A stretch of DNA of 64,000 bases, taken from contig CABYPW010000009.1 of assembly GCA_902520885.1 (NCBI GenBank), positions 5,001 through 69,000 of the forward strand, in the 5' to 3' direction. Shown here piece after piece: positions 4,946 to 41,445 of this stretch. The notes beneath the pieces are model-generated. The model saw only the letters and a program-made list of their open reading frames with translations. It did not search any database and had not been told where the DNA came from. This DNA is from an uncultured SAR116 cluster alpha proteobacterium. Its GTDB lineage: Bacteria > Pseudomonadota > Alphaproteobacteria > Puniceispirillales > Puniceispirillaceae. The number at the start of each line of letters is the position of its first letter. The stretch's first letter is position 1. A program made the translations under genes and the position numbers.

Positions 4946-5830
4946 ATGAAAAACCTAGCTAGTCTTACTTCTCTCCGCGTTTTTTCGGTTGTTGGAAAGC
5001 GTTTAAGCTTCACAGATGCAGCAAAAGAGTTGGGTGTCACACAGAGTGCTGTCAGTAGGCAAATAAAATCTCTTGAAAACTCTCTTAATATAGATCTTTT
5101 CAATAGAGTGGGTAATAGCGTTTCTTTAACGAAAGACGGTGAGTCCTTGCATCGTAGAATCTTCGAAATTTTTGGCCTGATGGAAGATGCAATAAGTGAC
5201 ATCACAAACTCAGTACAACAACGTAAATTAAATATACTTGCGCCACCTACTCTGGCAGCCCGTTGGCTGACGCGGCGCCTATTATCTTATCCCCACCATT
5301 TTCCAGGAATTGAACTAGCTGTACATACAAAAGCCCGTTCCGATATTAGGATGGATTGTGTTATTCACTATGGAAACCAACCTACAGTAGGTTCGGAAAG
5401 CCAGCAATTACTTTTGGAACACCATATAGCAGTTTGCTCCCCTAAACTTTTGCAAGATAGAGATGCCATGCGCGTAAGCTGTCTTTTGCATGTGTTTGAC
5501 GATGGACAGCGTTTTCCACTCTGGGAAGATTGGCTTGCGATAGAAGCAAACCATCCGGATTTACCTATTAATGCGTCAATGGAATTTGCATCGCTCGAGC
5601 TTGCTATCCAAGCTGCCAAAAATTCAGTTGGCATCGCGGTAGTGGACCGTAACATGATTGAATATGAGTTAAGTGCTGGCAGTCTTGTGCCAATTTCTGC
5701 GGCAACGGTAGTTGGTCCGAGAGGTTATTGGCTTGAGATCTCAAGTGAGCACCAATCAAAAGGACGTTCAGTGGAGTTATTTCGCTGGTTAAGACGTGTT
5801 AGAGATGCCGACACGGAAACGTTTGAGTAA
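4946..5830 (+). CDS. LysR-family regulator, GcvA-like
   Basis: A LysR-type transcriptional regulator of 294 residues. The N-terminal winged helix-turn-helix has the run SFTDAAKELGVTQSAVSRQIK (written here in part: residues about 23-43), followed by a type-2 periplasmic-binding-like effector domain with WLTRRL, VCSPKLL and GIAVVDRNMI, all typical of the GcvA subgroup. I chose the ATG at 4946, which gives the usual MKNLASLTSLRVF start; an in-frame TTG at 4925 would add seven unlikely residues. It is transcribed away from the methyl-compound operon and probably regulates it, plus itself. It ends 15 bases before the convergent end of iolJ. Confidence 0.85.
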   Translation: MKNLASLTSLRVFSVVGKRLSFTDAAKELGVTQSAVSRQIKSLENSLNIDLFNRVGNSVSLTKDGESLHRRIFEIFGLMEDAISDITNSVQQRKLNILAPPTLAARWLTRRLLSYPHHFPGIELAVHTKARSDIRMDCVIHYGNQPTVGSESQQLLLEHHIAVCSPKLLQDRDAMRVSCLLHVFDDGQRFPLWEDWLAIEANHPDLPINASMEFASLELAIQAAKNSVGIAVVDRNMIEYELSAGSLVPISAATVVGPRGYWLEISSEHQSKGRSVELFRWLRRVRDADTETFE

Positions 5831-33616: not shown

Positions 33617-34036
33617 CTAATTAAGACGCTTTCCAGTGTCAGCGTCAAAATAAGAAACTTTATCCATATTGAAAGTAAATTTCATTTCTATACCTGTTTT
33701 AGCTTCTGTTTCTGCCTGAAGACGCGCTGTTACTTCCTTTCCACCCAAGTTTATAAGAACGTAAGTATCAGCTCCGGCTGGTTCAACAACATCTACATTA
33801 CAGGAAGCGAGTTGAAGATCGCGTCCCTTCCTCAACTTTGAATCTCCTATATCCTCAGGTCGCAAACCAAGTACAATATTTTCTGGGAGTTTACTTATGT
33901 TCTCGTCATATAAAGTAAGTGGTTTCCCAGTGTTTCTTTCTATAACGAATTAGTTCCAACCCCATTTTTTTTAGCCTTTGCTGGTATAAGATTCATGGCG
34001 GGTTAACCCATAAAATCAGCAAATACGTATATAAAT
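33617..34036 (-). pseudogene. Remnant of a UgpC/MalK-type ABC ATPase (C-terminal part)
   Basis: Reading leftward from about 34036, the frame gives FADFMG, a TAA stop, then PAMNLIPAKAKKNGVG, where intact UgpC/MalK proteins have GSPAMNLIP. A frame change near 33950 is followed by ERNTGKPLTLYDENISKLPENIVLGLRPEDIG (given in part) and, to 33617, the TOBE-type end VDVVEPAGADTYVLINLGGKEVTARL. The Walker and signature motifs, about the first 230 residues, are missing. The SDR gene abuts the break. It is a decayed tail left by a deletion; an intact homologue lies at 60383-61456. The last 82 codons could still be read as an open frame but have no sensible start. Confidence 0.8.
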
Positions 34037-34753
34037 CTAGGTTTCCTTTTTAACTGGTTTAAAATTTAAAGATTTTGTTGTTGGAGATAAATTTACTTCG
34101 TCAATATTTGTTCCAATTCTGGTATGCAATAAATCAAGAATTATTTTCGCGATATCTTCTGGTTCTATTGCGTTAGTTTCTGTTTCTTTTGGTTCAAAAT
34201 TCAAGCTCTCAAAAAATGGTGTTCTAACAAAACCTGGGTTTAACAAACAAACCCTTATTCCAGATGTTGCCACCTCATCTCTTAAGGCCTGACAAAATCC
34301 TCTCAAACCAAATTTAGCTGCAGAATAGAGTGTCCCTTTCTTTTTACCAACCAAACCTGATTCAGAACCAATAAAAAAAATGGTTCCATTTTTTTCATAT
34401 TTCATATGGCTTACTATAAAACGGCATAAAGTAATATGCGAAATAAGGTTTAAATTTAGAAAGTTTCGAATTTGATTGGCTGAGAAGTTTTCAATTGATT
34501 GAAAATCACCATAACCCGCATTACCAATAAATACATCAATGTCAGGGTGTTCCTGTAAAATAGTAGTTATTAATTTTGGCAAGCTTTCTATTAGAGATAA
34601 ATCAGCCTCTATTGGCTCATATAGTTTGCTTTTATGAATGAATTTTTTATGTTGACGGGCTATGCCAACAACAGGAACGTCATTTTTTAAGAATAATTCA
34701 GCAGTTGCTTTACCAATGCCGCTAGAGCTTCCTGTAATTAAAACCTTCTTCAT
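34037..34753 (-). CDS. Short-chain dehydrogenase/reductase
   Basis: A 238-residue classical SDR: cofactor motif TGSSSGIGKA near the N-terminus, NAGYGD in the NNAG position, Ser in FFIGSESG, and YSAAK as the catalytic Tyr-Lys pair, followed by LNPGFVRTPF. It is thus catalytically complete, unlike the SDR at 23095. It follows the radical SAM gene by 17 bases and is the last gene of a four-gene leftward operon. Substrate unknown. It ends right at the ABC ATPase remnant, which may mark a recombination joint. Confidence 0.87.
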   Translation of the reverse strand: MKKVLITGSSSGIGKATAELFLKNDVPVVGIARQHKKFIHKSKLYEPIEADLSLIESLPKLITTILQEHPDIDVFIGNAGYGDFQSIENFSANQIRNFLNLNLISHITLCRFIVSHMKYEKNGTIFFIGSESGLVGKKKGTLYSAAKFGLRGFCQALRDEVATSGIRVCLLNPGFVRTPFFESLNFEPKETETNAIEPEDIAKIILDLLHTRIGTNIDEVNLSPTTKSLNFKPVKKET

Positions 34754-34770
34754 AATATGATACTTTCAAA

Positions 34771-35766
34771 TTAACCAGTGCAGTGAAAGATTTTTTTTAC
34801 AGGTAAATAACGTTGAAGCTCTTTTTGGATAAAGTGATACATTTCACTTTCAATCTCTTTTCCGTATGAAGTTACTCCATTATTATTAATATCTAAAGGG
34901 AATGCAAAAAGCCCGGTGGTATTATGAAGGTTAGAAATTTTTTTATACATTTTTTTTGGAAACCTTAATAAACCATAACTAACAGAGTGAATGCTTGAGA
35001 CGTTAATCTGTCCCATTATTTCACATATTAGCTCTGAATATTGCACTTTCCAATCATTCGTATAGATTAAAGGGTCAAACCTAAGACCAATTAGCCAACC
35101 ATAATCAGCCAAGTCTTTCATAGCTTTGATTCGTCGTCTGATCGAAGGCGCCTTATTATCTAATTTTTCTGCAATTTTATTGGGGGATAAGCTGAAAGCT
35201 ATTATGCAATTTTTAATAGCTGGTCTTTTTACCAACGATTTCGTAACAACGCTTTTGGTTCGTAATTCGACCTCCACGTTTTGATATTTTTCAAAGAATT
35301 GTATTAGCTGGTCTGAGAATCCACTTATTTTGTCAAACGCAAGTGAGTCACAATCATAACCAGAAAAAAACATCTGGCTGTCATTTTTATTTTTTTCAAT
35401 AGTATGAGAAATGTGTTCAAAAAAATCCTCGTAATTTACGAATAACACATAATTGGCGGAAGAATAAAGTCCTTGAAGGAAGCAGTAATCACAATCATAA
35501 AGACAATTATACATATGAGAAAAATAAAAATTTTTAGTGGAATTCATTCCAAAACCAGATGGGACAGGCAAAACAAAATTCTCAAATTTCTTGGCTAAAA
35601 TTAGAGCAGGGTTTTTTTTCTGGATTCTAAAATTTTGGTTTCTAATATTGAATAATTCCTGAAAGCGATTTATTGGAACCCAGTTTGCTTTGGGAAGCGC
35701 CTTCCTTACTCGCGTGGCAGTTGGATGTTGTAGAACCTCCTCTTCAAAATAAACTGTGTCTATCAT
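34771..35766 (-). CDS. Spore photoproduct lyase (SPL) family radical SAM protein
   Basis: A 331-residue radical S-adenosylmethionine enzyme. Its cluster motif CxxxCxxC is C88-C92-C95 in NCLYDCDYCFLQG. The SPL-family context is strong: FSGYDCDSLAFDKISGF, VELRTKSV, IAFSLSPNKIAEKLDNKAPS and GWLIGLRFDPLIY. Bacillus SplB repairs the spore thymine dimer, but this organism type does not sporulate, so the substrate is probably different. It overlaps the phosphorylase-like gene by 4 bases (35763-35766). The pairing suggests action on a nucleic-acid- or nucleoside-derived substrate; that is inference. Confidence 0.85.
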   Translation of the reverse strand: MIDTVYFEEEVLQHPTATRVRKALPKANWVPINRFQELFNIRNQNFRIQKKNPALILAKKFENFVLPVPSGFGMNSTKNFYFSHMYNCLYDCDYCFLQGLYSSANYVLFVNYEDFFEHISHTIEKNKNDSQMFFSGYDCDSLAFDKISGFSDQLIQFFEKYQNVEVELRTKSVVTKSLVKRPAIKNCIIAFSLSPNKIAEKLDNKAPSIRRRIKAMKDLADYGWLIGLRFDPLIYTNDWKVQYSELICEIMGQINVSSIHSVSYGLLRFPKKMYKKISNLHNTTGLFAFPLDINNNGVTSYGKEIESEMYHFIQKELQRYLPVKKIFHCTG

Positions 35767-36647
35767 AAATAATCCCGATTTTTTTTATTAGAAGATATGT
35801 TGTTCTCTAAAACACTGATTATCTCTTTCGCTTTTTTTTTGGAGAACTGTAAATCTTTTAATGTCTTTCTTGGATTAGCGAATTTCCATTTTTTGTAAAG
35901 TTGTCTAAACTTAAAGCTATTAGTTTTTGAAAAATGTGTGGAATTCTCAATCTCAATCACTTCATCTGGAATCTTAAATCGCTCCATTTCTAGATCCGAT
36001 AATTTATTTATTTCAGACAAAAGCTCTTTTAGGTCTCGAAGATTTTTATTGATTAGGTCTTCAATTATCGAGGACTTAAGTTTTTTTATGGGGTTTTTGG
36101 GGGTATCTGATACAATTTTAAAAACAAAAATGAGCTCATTGCAGGAAAATGCAGATGCGACTTCACAAAATCCAAAAGCCTCCATGTCATAAAGAACAGG
36201 ATTATTATAGTTTGTCTCAGCCTTATTTACCGTCAACAACGATGTGCCTGGTATAATTTTAGAAAATCTAAAGCCTGGAAAAAATGTTCTCTGGTGAACT
36301 GGTGAAAATACTTTTATAGCCTGATAGAGGTTGCCTAATGGCTCTGTGTAATACCCCGCTATGCCAAGATTTATCCAAGCGGCATGATTTTTAATATTGA
36401 AGTATGCCTTTAAAAACGCAGTTGCAGCCGCGGATTTTATGGCACCCACGCCAGAGATAATTAATGCGTGGCCAAGTTCTTCATTGGCATAGATTGTAAA
36501 ATTTGATTGTGTGTTGACATTTTTTAATTTTAAAAATTTGATAATTGGGGCAGCTTCAGCACGAAGTGCTATGACCCAGCATGTTGAATAGATACATGAG
36601 TTACTCGAAACATCTTTTGATAAAAAATTTAATCCTTCTGAAGGCAT
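35763..36647 (-). CDS. Nucleoside phosphorylase-like protein with C-terminal extension
   Basis: A 294-residue protein. Residues about 20-200 resemble MTA/SAH nucleosidase and purine phosphorylase proteins: CWVIALRAEAAPI, IISGVGAIKSAAATAF, WINLGIAGYYTEPLGN, LYDMEAFGFCEVA with the ribose-binding Met-Glu, and FKIVSDTPKNP with the catalytic Asp. The last 90 residues are Lys-rich and helical and have no match I know. It overlaps the glycosyltransferase gene by 19 bases and the SPL-like gene by 4, so the products are made together. Probably cleaves an N-glycosidic bond; substrate unknown. Confidence 0.72.
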   Translation of the reverse strand: MPSEGLNFLSKDVSSNSCIYSTCWVIALRAEAAPIIKFLKLKNVNTQSNFTIYANEELGHALIISGVGAIKSAAATAFLKAYFNIKNHAAWINLGIAGYYTEPLGNLYQAIKVFSPVHQRTFFPGFRFSKIIPGTSLLTVNKAETNYNNPVLYDMEAFGFCEVASAFSCNELIFVFKIVSDTPKNPIKKLKSSIIEDLINKNLRDLKELLSEINKLSDLEMERFKIPDEVIEIENSTHFSKTNSFKFRQLYKKWKFANPRKTLKDLQFSKKKAKEIISVLENNISSNKKNRDYL

Positions 36648-37513
36648 TGGTATAAATACTTTTTCTTACTCATCTCTGCAAAAAATGAAGTGTTATCTCT
36701 TTTTCTTGCGCCATTTATTAAAATATCTAACTTAAAAATTAATTCATTATGAATAGCATTTCTCTGATACTCAGTAAGTAAATCATTTTTTAAGAGTTTT
36801 TCCATACTAAGAACTCTAAAACGGTCCATCCCCCAGTATTTTTTTGATAGCTGGTCAGAATGTCCTCCATTTTTTATTAAAAGTGGTTTTTCAACATAGT
36901 GAAACTCGTTTTGAACACTGTAACGGAGCCAGAAATCATAATCTTCACAAGCTGGTAAACCCTCATCGAAATACCCTAATTTTGAAAATAGATTTTTGTT
37001 TATCAGAGAAGAACTTGGAGATACACAACATAACTTAAGACAATTTTCAAAAATATTACCGCCCCTCTTGAGATGTTTTTTTTGAGGGTTTAACCTAACT
37101 CCATTTTTGATCCAAATCTCGTCAGTGTGACTCACCATATTTTTAAAACCAGTATCTTTTAAAGATGATAATTGAACTTTCAGTTTATTGTGTTTCCATT
37201 CATCGTCAGAATCCAATAATGCAATAAATTCGCCGCGCGATGATTTAATCCCTATATTTCTAGCTGCGCTAATTCCTTTATTTTCTGTTCGAATGTATTT
37301 CATTTCATTATCTTTATCTTCGGAATTTGAAAATCCCATATTCTTGAGTATTGAAAACGTATCGTCAGTAGACCCATCATCCACAACTATTATTTCAACG
37401 GGTTTTAAACTCTGATGTTTTACGGATAAAATACAATTTTTGATAAAATGACTTCGATTAAATGTTGGAATTATTACAGAAACTCTGGGAATGTCATTCA
37501 TAGGCAAGCTCAA
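36629..37513 (-). CDS. Family 2 glycosyltransferase
   Basis: A 294-residue GT-A fold transferase. The N-terminal VSVIIPTFNRSHFIKNCI is followed by VVDDGSTDDTF. The nucleotide-sugar/metal motif DxD appears as LLDSDDEWKHNKL, and ACEDYDFWLRYS is the ED-Y motif of GT2 proteins. No membrane helix, so it acts in the cytoplasm. It is the first gene of the tight operon with the phosphorylase-like, SPL-like and SDR genes. Acceptor unknown; the operon makes a modified nucleoside or sugar conceivable. Confidence 0.87.
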   Translation of the reverse strand: MSLPMNDIPRVSVIIPTFNRSHFIKNCILSVKHQSLKPVEIIVVDDGSTDDTFSILKNMGFSNSEDKDNEMKYIRTENKGISAARNIGIKSSRGEFIALLDSDDEWKHNKLKVQLSSLKDTGFKNMVSHTDEIWIKNGVRLNPQKKHLKRGGNIFENCLKLCCVSPSSSLINKNLFSKLGYFDEGLPACEDYDFWLRYSVQNEFHYVEKPLLIKNGGHSDQLSKKYWGMDRFRVLSMEKLLKNDLLTEYQRNAIHNELIFKLDILINGARKRDNTSFFAEMSKKKYLYQCLQKD

Positions 37514-37555: not shown

Positions 37556-39403
37556 TTAGTTCAAACCCAACGCGGCAAGTTCACTATAAACCTGCTCAAA
37601 ATATTGACCATGTGCTCGTGCTATACTGCTTAACCTTACTTTTAAAGTTTCGGTATTGAGACTGTTTGGAAATCGGTTCTGTTGGTTAATAAGTTTTTTG
37701 GCATTTCTTTCGTTTCCAAGTTTATTTTCTGCATAGGCCGTCAAAATATAGATCTCAGGTGCTTTATCTTTAAGAGTAAGATTACCTATTTGCACTACTT
37801 CCTCGTACTTGCCAGTGAGCATATACGACATCATTAAATTTTTCGTTATATTGTAGTCGGTGTCGTTTCTTATCAAGCTGAGTGCTTTGCTCAGGTTTTT
37901 TATTCCAGAGTCATATTTACCGCAAGTTACCTGTGCCACCCCGACAATGTTTATAGAACGGGCAGAGGGATTTAGCTTTTCTACTTGTTCTGAATGATAT
38001 AATGCAGCTTCACAATTTCTAGTAATGTTTGCTTCTATTATCGCTTTAAGAGTGTGTGTGTTGTGGTCTTTCTGTAAGCTCAATGCAGTATCTGATAATT
38101 GAATAATTTTTTTTACATCTTCCTGTTTATCCTTAGATAAACCCGATAATAGTTTTACGAGATGCAAATAACCACCCATCAATGCCTTATTTGCTTCTGG
38201 GGCCTCAGAGAGTAGTAGTTTCTCATATAAAGAATTCGCTTTATACCATCCCTCCTTTGATGCCTGACGCAGATATCTTATCATTGATTGTTGCAAGATA
38301 TAATCATCGAAGTTTTGGAAATTACTTGAGGTTATAACACTGTTTTCCATTGCTGGGCCCACATCTAAAGCCTCAACAATCTCTAGACTTATTTTGTCTT
38401 GCATTTTAAAGAATTCATTTTCAAGAAAATCAAATTTTTCAGTCCAAAGAACGCGTTCAGTCTCTAACTCAAGAAGTTCAGTTGTTACTCTTATTTGGCT
38501 TCCAACTCTTTGTGCTGATCCATTGATTAAAAAATTAACACCATACTTATCAAAAATCTCCTTATTAGTGAAATTTGATTCCCTGATGAAATAGCCGGTG
38601 CTGCTAGAAAGTAAAACGGTGCTGTTGTATTTTTGCAGCATTGCGGAAATTCCCTCGGTAATCGCATCACCAAGATTAAAGTTTTCGCTGGCTGAATTAG
38701 TTAAATTTTTAAAAGGCATTATGAGGATTACAGGGAGGTTAGATTCCGTGTAAACGATATTCTGGTCTTTTTTATAGAACTGTAGATATGTGATTGCAGA
38801 AATAATTACTGTTAAAGTGAGGGTGCAAAAAACTAATACAGCCAGGGGTGATTTTTGACTTCTTATTTTTCTTCTATGCGAACTATCAATCAAGATATCG
38901 AACGCATGAAATTGATTTTGTTTGACCTTTTGAACGCCTAAGTCATTATATTTTAATTCGGTCTTCCCTTTTACATAATCGTAAATGTTTTTTGATATAG
39001 TCACACCGCCTTTTTGGGACAATGCTTCAAGTCTAGCTGCGATATTGACGCCATCTCCGAGGTAGTTTTTACCTTGCTTTACTACATCACCACTGTTAAT
39101 ACCGATCCGAAATTCCAGAGGTATAATTACGCCAGGTTTTTCATTATTAATTTTTATTTCTTTCTGAAAATTTACAGCACACTGAACTGCGCCAACCGCA
39201 CTGGGAAATTCAATTAGAAAAGAGTCACCACCTGTATTGAATAAATTTCCTTCGTATTGTTTTAAAAGATTTTTTAAAATAGTTTCACAGTGTCTAAGGC
39301 TTTTTACAGTCTCGTTTTCATTTTCTTCCATATGCTTGCTATAACCAACAACATCGGCTGCTAAAATTACAGAAACTTTGCGATTTATCTCGCTTGATAC
39401 CAT
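37556..39403 (-). CDS. Class III adenylate/guanylate cyclase with TolB/FlgO-like and TPR-like regions
   Basis: A 615-residue protein. Residues about 1-170 are a class III nucleotide cyclase: metal Asp in ILAADVVGYSKHM, NTGGDSFLIEF, FRIGINSGDVV and GDGVNIAARLEAL, the last with the transition-state Asn and Arg. One membrane helix is at about 190-212. Residues about 225-345 match the TolB-like/FlgO segment (ILIMPFKNLT, INGSAQRVGSQIRVTTELLE). The rest is helical, TPR-like repeats. The layout implies cytoplasmic cyclase and periplasmic sensor. It is a paralogue of the next gene (39595-41445). Confidence 0.85.
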   Translation of the reverse strand: MVSSEINRKVSVILAADVVGYSKHMEENENETVKSLRHCETILKNLLKQYEGNLFNTGGDSFLIEFPSAVGAVQCAVNFQKEIKINNEKPGVIIPLEFRIGINSGDVVKQGKNYLGDGVNIAARLEALSQKGGVTISKNIYDYVKGKTELKYNDLGVQKVKQNQFHAFDILIDSSHRRKIRSQKSPLAVLVFCTLTLTVIISAITYLQFYKKDQNIVYTESNLPVILIMPFKNLTNSASENFNLGDAITEGISAMLQKYNSTVLLSSSTGYFIRESNFTNKEIFDKYGVNFLINGSAQRVGSQIRVTTELLELETERVLWTEKFDFLENEFFKMQDKISLEIVEALDVGPAMENSVITSSNFQNFDDYILQQSMIRYLRQASKEGWYKANSLYEKLLLSEAPEANKALMGGYLHLVKLLSGLSKDKQEDVKKIIQLSDTALSLQKDHNTHTLKAIIEANITRNCEAALYHSEQVEKLNPSARSINIVGVAQVTCGKYDSGIKNLSKALSLIRNDTDYNITKNLMMSYMLTGKYEEVVQIGNLTLKDKAPEIYILTAYAENKLGNERNAKKLINQQNRFPNSLNTETLKVRLSSIARAHGQYFEQVYSELAALGLN

Positions 39404-39594: not shown

Positions 39595-41445
39595 CTATTT
39601 AATTTCGTATTTATCTTTATAAAACGTGGAACAAAAATAACCACATGAACTGGCAACTTCCTTAAACCCTTCTGAATTTAATTCCTTCGTTTCTTTTAAA
39701 ACCGAACTGTATACTTTCGCGTTTTGAAGATCGTCTTGTAAGAGGTAAATGAAAGCCATCAGATTTTGTGTTGATTTATCTTTCAAACCTTGTTTTATAA
39801 AATTTTCTCCAACAATCAAAGCTTTGCTAAAGTCTTTTTTAAACATGTGGGCGGCAATAATCATTTGCTTAATTTCCGCATTTTTCGCATTTGGTTCAAG
39901 ACGGAGAGCAACATTTAAATGTTTAATAGCGTTATCCTGATCGTCGCACGTTATTAAAACATAGCCTAATTGCCTATATCGATTAGAATTTTTCCCAGCC
40001 TTAACAAATTCCTCCAGATGGTAACCTGCTTTTTGGCAATCTTTTTCAAAAATTAATGCAGTTAATCCTGCTAGATTATGTGCATAACCGGGATTTAAAA
40101 GTAATGATTTTTCTATAGAACTGTAAAGGAGTTCTTTGTCTGCAACCTCGTCATCGGCAAGATTTCTTCGCAGACGCGCGAAGGCATTCCACCCTGGCAT
40201 GAGATATTTATAAACATTTTCATCAGACAGTTTTGTGGTAAGATTAGCACTTAATTTTTCAGCTTTAATTAGTGACTCAGGGGTTCTAGTAAGCCAATTT
40301 GAGCGCCAATTCATGAAATCAAGAAAATCTGATGAACTTGAGAATACTACTCTGTCTAATTCTGCATCCTCTCCCATTGTTATTTTGGTCATGGTTGATG
40401 CAAGTACTTCATCTGAAATCTCATCCTGTATAGCTAGAGCATCTGTGTCTTTAAAATCAGCAGTTTTAGACCATAGTAGCTCAGAAGAAATTTTGTCTGC
40501 AAGTTCAGCAGTTATTCTCCATGATGTTCCACTTTTCTGTACTGATCCAGAAACGGCATGAGATATCCCTAATTTTTCAGCAAATTTTTCGTCTAGTTTG
40601 CCATTTTTGAAAAGCTTATTTCTAACCTCTTCGGAGGGTACAGACACTTCTTCGTAATTACTTAGCTTAGTTCTAATGGCTTGAGTTAATCCCTGAGCAA
40701 GATTAAGGGTTTCTGCTTCATAAGACAGATTGCGAAATTCTACCACTATCATTTTTATTGCTTTAGAGTCTAGGAACAACTCTTCAGGCTGGTTTGTTTC
40801 CTGCTGACCAAGAGTTACAAACAAAAAGCCGGCTATAAGCAGACAAAAGCAAAAAGCCGCAATAGAAAATTTTACATTTTTGTCTCTTGTATTGTCTTTA
40901 TTTTTAAGATTTCTCTTTTGAGATGGTTCCAAAACGATGTCATATACATGAAAGCTGTTCTCTTTAATTTGCTGTATACCAAGGTCGTTAAATTCTAGAG
41001 ACGTTTTTTTGTATATAAGCTCATAAATGGATTTTGATATACTAATCCCGTTTGGTTGTGCCAGTGCTTCTAAGCGAGTTGCAATATTTACCCCATCGCC
41101 ATAAAGGTCTTCCCCTTCAATAACAACATCACCCATATTGATTCCAATACGGAATTCCATGGCATTATTGTTTTTTGTGAATTCATTTCTTTTTTCTAAC
41201 TGTTTTTGAAACTCAGTGGCACATTCTACAGCGGAGACGGCGCTATTAAATTCCGCTAAAACTGAGTCCCCAGCTGTATTAAATATACGGCCATTATGAG
41301 TTTTTAACAGTACATCAAGTAGTATCTTACATTCTCGGAGGTTTTTTACAGTTTGTGTCTCGTCACGCTCCATAGATTTACTGTAACCAACAACATCTGC
41401 CGCCAGTATCACAGCAATCTTGCGGTTTATATCACTAGAAACCAT
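39595..41445 (-). CDS. Class III nucleotide cyclase, paralogue of the gene at 37556
   Basis: A 616-residue protein with the same layout. The cyclase domain has ILAADVVGYSKSM, NTAGDSVLAEF, FRIGINMGDVV and GDGVNIATRLEAL, all key residues present. A membrane helix at about 197-218 (FSIAAFCFCLLIAGFLFVTLG, quoted nearly in full) is followed by a FlgO-like part (ISHAVSGSVQKSGTSWRITAEL, quoted in part) and TPR-like repeats. Both start MVSS-IN-RKVAVILAADVVGYSK-like and align end to end. They look like a tandem duplication that has since diverged, mostly outside the cyclase domain. A 191-base gap separates them, so each may have its own promoter. Confidence 0.85.
   Translation of the reverse strand: MVSSDINRKIAVILAADVVGYSKSMERDETQTVKNLRECKILLDVLLKTHNGRIFNTAGDSVLAEFNSAVSAVECATEFQKQLEKRNEFTKNNNAMEFRIGINMGDVVIEGEDLYGDGVNIATRLEALAQPNGISISKSIYELIYKKTSLEFNDLGIQQIKENSFHVYDIVLEPSQKRNLKNKDNTRDKNVKFSIAAFCFCLLIAGFLFVTLGQQETNQPEELFLDSKAIKMIVVEFRNLSYEAETLNLAQGLTQAIRTKLSNYEEVSVPSEEVRNKLFKNGKLDEKFAEKLGISHAVSGSVQKSGTSWRITAELADKISSELLWSKTADFKDTDALAIQDEISDEVLASTMTKITMGEDAELDRVVFSSSSDFLDFMNWRSNWLTRTPESLIKAEKLSANLTTKLSDENVYKYLMPGWNAFARLRRNLADDEVADKELLYSSIEKSLLLNPGYAHNLAGLTALIFEKDCQKAGYHLEEFVKAGKNSNRYRQLGYVLITCDDQDNAIKHLNVALRLEPNAKNAEIKQMIIAAHMFKKDFSKALIVGENFIKQGLKDKSTQNLMAFIYLLQDDLQNAKVYSSVLKETKELNSEGFKEVASSCGYFCSTFYKDKYEIK

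Follow-up and report, generated by a model that had tools for sequence, protein, structure and literature searches.

A four-gene unit in a SAR116 cluster genome

We analysed a 64,000-nucleotide stretch of DNA (positions 5,001 to 69,000 of contig CABYPW010000009.1; hereafter the window) from an uncultured SAR116 cluster alphaproteobacterium, whose genome is a 2.17-Mb draft that is 95% complete (G000). A check of the open reading frames (ORFs) in the window revealed a unit of four genes, all on the minus strand, that encode in order a GT2 glycosyltransferase, a nucleosidase, a protein resembling the radical S-adenosylmethionine (SAM) enzyme spore photoproduct lyase (SPL), and a short-chain dehydrogenase/reductase (SDR). 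The first two genes overlap by 19 bases, the nucleosidase and SPL-like genes overlap by 4 bases (ATGA), and 17 bases separate the SPL-like gene from the SDR gene, which is exactly the layout described in an initial annotation made from the sequence alone. The comparisons below show that this cassette is the alphaproteobacterial form of an ancient pair of enzymes, a radical-SAM enzyme with the SPL fold and a nucleosidase of the methylthioadenosine/S-adenosylhomocysteine (MTA/SAH) nucleosidase (MTAN) type. The pair usually occurs with an SDR, and the cassette probably produces or acts on a metabolite derived from adenosine.

The radical-SAM enzyme has an SPL fold and altered key residues

The SPL-like protein (34771–35766, minus strand; 331 amino acids) matched the SPL family PF20903 (E = 8e-20), and fold, profile and residue conservation placed it in a YDxD subfamily of SPL-fold radical-SAM enzymes. 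Its AlphaFold2 model (mean pLDDT 90.6) superposed over its whole length on SPL (TM 0.84, E = 3e-21; 4rh0/4fhc), and a profile of its family searched against the PDB matched SPL chains only (2.9e-24). The cluster motif CxxxCxxC (C88-xxx-C92-xx-C95) was invariant in all 111 family members, as were the equivalents of two SplB residues, the cluster-adjacent Tyr97 and the SAM-site Lys175. The score against the SPL family TIGR04070 was 93.6 bits, compared with a curated cut-off of 400.

Several residues central to SplB are replaced. Cys141 is the hydrogen donor in SplB (B. subtilis numbering; PMC9850924). This position was occupied by Tyr (Tyr137 in the window protein) in 110/111 members and by Phe in the remaining one, and the position of Ala235 was Asp (Asp231) in every member. 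Opposite Arg305 and Tyr306, the pair that contacts the photoproduct in SPL structures (in the numbering of the SplB used), the family alignment had a gap or unconserved residues. The family has instead its own invariant set (D140, E167, R169, D231, G265 and R268), which, judged by the alignment, marks a changed pocket. Because of the Cys141-to-Tyr and Ala235-to-Asp replacements and the unconserved Arg305/Tyr306 pair, we consider that this protein is not an SPL but represents an SPL-fold subfamily with a probably different reaction. In a phylogenetic tree, the whole cassette family separated from SplB and TIGR03886 proteins with a support of 0.95, and its alphaproteobacterial branch was monophyletic (support 0.96).

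The partner is a divergent nucleosidase with a helical C-terminal domain

The gene upstream of the SPL-like gene (35763–36647, minus strand) encodes a 294-amino acid protein that gave no Pfam match above cut-off, lying below detection by PF01048, and only weak NCBIfam matches, all below their cut-offs and the best to futalosine hydrolase (9.5e-6). More sensitive comparisons were informative: nearly all PDB matches of a profile built from 30 family members were MTA/SAH nucleosidases, and the best fold matches of the AlphaFold2 model (mean pLDDT 88) were MTAN and futalosine hydrolase (E ~1e-11). Because family profile and modelled fold agree, this protein, initially called phosphorylase-like, is better named a nucleosidase; its assignment as an enzyme of N-glycosidic bonds stands, but its resemblance is to hydrolases, not phosphorylases. 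Residues E31, E156 and D181 are the equivalents of the E. coli MTAN catalytic residues Glu12, Glu174 and Asp197, and were conserved in 107/107, 106/110 and 105/111 aligned sequences, respectively. At three loci (L054, L059 and L100) Asp181 is replaced by Gly, and none of these loci has an SDR, hinting at a joint loss of both activities; the L100 contig is short, and its SDR gene may lie beyond it.

The Lys-rich C-terminal end of some 90 residues, which the initial annotation had assigned to no known family, is indeed present, but it is not an oddity of this genome. It forms a conserved helical domain of ~65–90 residues found from Clostridia to alphaproteobacteria, spanning about residues 225–290 in the window protein with helices modelled at 228–287. 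The domain stands between the two enzymes in a Fusobacterium fusion protein (see below); a streamlined alphaproteobacterial genus (L134–L136) lacks it, and in L071 and L083 it is short or lacking altogether. Nucleosidases that have degenerated catalytically (L022 and L040–L042) keep the domain beside an intact SPL-like enzyme, a pattern suggesting that the domain helps the nucleosidase to pair with its SPL-like neighbour.

All 13 cassette-bearing Clostridia and Fusobacteria tested also have a canonical MTAN, so their general enzyme is not the cassette nucleosidase, and we rejected general MTAN duty for it in these two groups. This rejection does not extend to the alphaproteobacteria: a canonical MTAN was not detected in four cassette-bearing genomes of that class (G083, G063, G128 and G143).

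Nucleosidase and SPL-like genes are strictly linked

The initial annotation had treated the four genes as one unit and held that a lack of conserved linkage beyond this genome would refute its reading; the genes do form one unit, and their linkage is conserved far more widely. Among 121 related genomes, 38 carried the SPL-like gene and 37 of these also carried the nucleosidase by profile search; the sole exception (G085) is a genome whose contig ends inside the SPL gene. No strong nucleosidase match was found by the same search in the other 83 genomes. The order GT2-nucleosidase-SPL-like-SDR was retained in all 20 alphaproteobacterial neighbourhoods inspected (L024–L043), with outer flanks that vary between families; the nucleosidases of L040–L042 are too divergent for BLAST and were recognised by position and profile. 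Distribution is patchy even within the genus of the window, where the unit is absent from G002, G005, G006 and G009. The flanking peroxiredoxin gene is present without the cassette in G005 and G006, and G001 is uninformative as its contig ends just before the site. Elsewhere the cassette is rare, occurring in 8/337 sampled genomes of the class and 1/399 of the phylum, with the window's own genome counted in each.

We also scanned 84,980 reference genomes, which yielded at least 496 relatives, and kept 80 non-alphaproteobacterial loci for analysis. Relatives occurred in Fusobacterium, in many Clostridia (among them the thermophilic Thermobrachium and Caloramator, Tepidibacter, and species of Clostridium) and in one deltaproteobacterial metagenome-assembled genome. 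The nucleosidase was directly upstream of, or fused to, the SPL-like enzyme in all 80 loci. In a Fusobacterium record (L021), tblastn identified a protein of 32% identity; here nucleosidase and SPL-like enzyme form a single 623-residue ORF followed by an SDR, and the two are likewise fused in the clostridial locus L071 and apparently in L100. The trio is also present on two human-gut contigs deposited as 'phage'. The records behind L021–L023 are unusual in their labels: NZ_CP084075.1 resembles a chromosome although it is recorded as a 2.1-Mb Fusobacterium plasmid, and MT835514 and MT835770 resemble bacterial contigs although they are recorded as phage. Pairwise distances of nucleosidase and SPL-like proteins correlated within groups (r = 0.92 and 0.86). 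We set aside a block on a Brachyspira plasmid that encodes a radical-SAM enzyme and a glycosyltransferase, as its other two genes encode epimerases and it is not this cassette.

SDR and GT2 are accessories to the two-gene core

The last gene (34037–34753, minus strand; 238 amino acids) matched PF00106 (adh_short; 4.6e-41), and an alignment of 20 cassette SDRs showed the TGxxxGIG motif and the Ser130/Tyr143/Lys147 set of a classical SDR. An SDR gene lay directly downstream of the SPL-like gene in 62/80 non-alphaproteobacterial loci. The first gene (36629–37513, minus strand) encodes 294 amino acids from a TTG start, or 290 from an alternative ATG four codons later, and its product matched Glycos_transf_2 (PF00535; 7e-33, 114 bits against a cut-off of 23.3), with DGS, DSDD and ED motifs that were invariant in 26 alphaproteobacterial homologues. 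No GT2 gene was found beside the core in the clostridial and fusobacterial loci among the 80, and the gene is confined to alphaproteobacteria. SDR and GT2 are accessories to the nucleosidase/SPL-like core. Similarity of the GT2 to arsenosugar or teichuronic-type enzymes was generic and far below cut-offs, and we rejected these assignments.

Individual alphaproteobacterial loci depart from the standard arrangement. In one genome, the nucleosidase and SPL genes are separated by inserted genes for a carbamoyltransferase and a TPR protein (L135:9509-12551). In another alphaproteobacterial family (L137–L139), a methyltransferase-like gene replaces GT2 upstream of the nucleosidase and there is no SDR. 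In a single family of the order, the gene directly upstream of GT2 encodes a GFA-family protein (PF04828) of 133 residues in L031, L033 and L034, with ORFs of the same length in L035–L038.

A promoter scan gave a signal no higher than in shuffled sequences. In the window, just downstream of the SDR gene, 33617–33990 (minus strand) is a frame-shifted C-terminal remnant of a sugar ATP-binding cassette (ABC)-transporter ATPase, UgpC/MalK-like by eye. Directly upstream of the cassette are genes for two tandem cyclase-TPR-type proteins with the same domain plan (37556–39403 and 39595–41445, minus strand); in the relatives examined, L024 and L025 have only the first of the pair and L027 only the second.

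A proposed pathway from SAM to a glycosylated product

MTAN-type enzymes act on 5′-substituted adenosines, and radical-SAM enzymes produce such compounds from SAM. Put together, the substrate class of one and the product class of the other lead to two main readings of the core, one in which an acceptor is adenosylated and one in which free 5′-deoxyadenosine is disposed of. The MTAN likeness of the nucleosidase points to a 5′-substituted adenosine that the radical-SAM enzyme could itself generate, rather than to a photolesion. The unit may also build a modified nucleoside, as the initial annotation suggested.

We hypothesize, with a probability of about 0.4, that the cassette transfers a 5′-deoxyadenosyl group and then removes adenine, reduces and glycosylates the product, a sequence for which we infer four steps. 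The sequences themselves establish gene linkage, fold, residue conservation and co-inheritance. First, the radical-SAM enzyme would cleave SAM, and the 5′-deoxyadenosyl radical would add to, or end up on, an acceptor, because the Cys that SplB uses to quench the product radical is a Tyr here. The nucleosidase would then hydrolyse adenine off this 5′-substituted adenosine, so that the acceptor would keep a 5-deoxyribosyl group. Next, the SDR could reduce the opened sugar or another carbonyl, and in alphaproteobacteria GT2 would finally glycosylate the product. Strict pairing of the two core genes, despite a canonical MTAN in every clostridial and fusobacterial genome tested, favours such acceptor transfer over 5′-deoxyadenosine disposal. 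Also in its favour are the fusions of the two genes, their correlated pairwise distances, the MTAN-type fold and profile of the nucleosidase, the changed pocket of the SPL-like enzyme and the order of chemistry in the hopanoid scheme described below. A broader form of this pathway is doubtful though possible: shared across phyla, the SPL-fold enzyme would join 5′-deoxyadenosyl to a common cell component (a lipid, a cofactor or RNA), the nucleosidase would strip the adenine, and SDR and glycosyltransferase would finish the product.

Several observations weigh against acceptor transfer. No acceptor emerged from these comparisons, and we know of no precedent for adenosyl transfer by an SPL-fold enzyme. 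The SDR is not beside the pair in 18/80 loci, and of 12 SDR-less genomes checked only 3 have a family SDR elsewhere. Clustering of 543 flanking genes from the 80 loci gave common transporters and enzymes only, none outside the trio being consistently conserved, and we therefore rejected any inference of a substrate from neighbouring genes. Finally, catalytic residues of the nucleosidase are lost in L022, L040–L042, L054, L059 and L100 although the SPL-like enzyme is retained. Such loss would break the second step and is more easily explained if the nucleosidase merely removes 5′-deoxyadenosine; it favours disposal.

Alternative explanations

The disposal reading holds that the SPL-like enzyme performs ordinary hydrogen abstraction, that the nucleosidase is a dedicated, sometimes fused 5′-deoxyadenosine hydrolase relieving product inhibition, and that SDR and GT2 process whatever the radical enzyme makes. 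We regard it as possible, on the unlikely side of even. 5′-Deoxyadenosine is known to inhibit radical-SAM enzymes and needs disposal (PMC8102628), and the nucleosidase has the MTAN-type fold that this duty would call for. The loss of its catalytic residues in lineages that keep the SPL-like enzyme would be expected if another MTAN takes over, and the four cassette-bearing alphaproteobacteria in which we detected no canonical MTAN also fit. However, a dedicated enzyme would be redundant wherever a canonical MTAN exists, as in the 13 Clostridia and Fusobacteria tested, yet the pairing was without exception in the 80 loci, and the retention of inactivated nucleosidases with their C-terminal domain suggests more than waste disposal.

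We also considered salvage or hypermodification of a modified nucleoside, of the 7-deazaguanine type or another, in which the nucleosidase would free the base, the SPL-like enzyme would cleave or rearrange it, and GT2 would glycosylate the nucleoside. A queuosine hydrolase and a radical-SAM queuine lyase reported for gut bacteria combine base release with subsequent cleavage, and the cassette is common in gut Clostridia and Fusobacteria. Moreover, queC-queE-queD closely precede the GT2-nucleosidase-SPL cluster in two genomes from a single genus of streamlined alphaproteobacteria (L134:4250-5995 and L136:4688-6469). Nevertheless, one opposite-strand gene separates the que genes from the cassette, the arrangement is confined to that genus and no such neighbours stand out elsewhere, so we rejected the queuosine link as a substrate clue. 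MTAN-type sites recognise adenine nucleosides, and queuine lyase was not among the PDB sequence matches or the listed top fold matches. Overall, we judge this alternative unlikely. An explanation of some other kind altogether seems improbable.

Photoproduct repair by an SPL relative that reverses UV damage to DNA or to nucleosides, the latter raised in the initial annotation, would accord with the SPL fold and the retained Tyr97 and Lys175 equivalents, but we rejected it as very improbable given the replaced hydrogen-donor Cys, the missing Arg/Tyr counterparts, the score far under the SPL cut-off, a genuine SplB above the family cut-off elsewhere in seven cassette-bearing clostridia, and the gut and thermophilic-anaerobe habitats of many holders, which probably make UV an unlikely driver. 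Two other points of that annotation were supported: the unit is unlike a DNA-repair operon, and it brings an enzyme of N-glycosidic bonds together with a radical-SAM enzyme.

Every component of the cassette belongs to a known superfamily, and literature searches, which covered open-licence full texts only, found no paper on the cassette. Its many relatives in reference genomes probably tend to be annotated as relatives of SPL though the catalytic Cys is missing. A fixed, sometimes fused pair of radical-SAM enzyme and adenine nucleosidase makes a specific chemical prediction, either 5′-deoxyadenosyl transfer or obligate 5′-deoxyadenosine removal. If the transfer pathway is correct, gut Clostridia, Fusobacteria and marine alphaproteobacteria would contain metabolites of a new class, derived from adenosine.

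Comparison with known systems

The closest parallel in chemistry is the hopanoid side-chain pathway, in which HpnH, HpnG, an as yet unnamed reductase and HpnI act in sequence, so that a radical-SAM reaction, adenine removal, reduction and glycosyl transfer follow in the same order that we propose for the cassette (PMC12583986). The cassette differs in that its radical-SAM enzyme is of the SPL type and its acceptor would be another one. The nucleosidase gave no match to the NCBIfam hopanoid phosphorylase (HpnG-type) at E ≤ 1, and squalene-hopene cyclase (PF13243) had no match in the window's genome or in six relatives; lacking that cyclase, the genome gave us reason to reject membership in the hopanoid pathway. 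One contig of the alphaproteobacterium G128 holds a squalene-hopene cyclase.

TIGR03886 (spore photoproduct lyase family protein) is a related SPL-fold radical-SAM family of unproven function. The cassette enzyme scored 69 bits against its cut-off of 437, TIGR03886 proteins do not group with the cassette family in the tree, and no nucleosidase was seen beside TIGR03886 genes in the annotated neighbourhoods looked at. With MTA/SAH nucleosidase and futalosine hydrolase, the cassette nucleosidase shares the fold and the catalytic Glu/Glu/Asp set, but it is very divergent, has the extra C-terminal helical domain and is coupled to one radical-SAM enzyme. The cassette enzyme likewise resembles SplB itself in whole-length fold, CxxxCxxC motif and Tyr97 and Lys175 equivalents, and differs from it at Cys141, Ala235 and Arg305/Tyr306, in forming a separate monophyletic family, in having a nucleosidase as its partner, and in occurring in bacteria that do not form spores.

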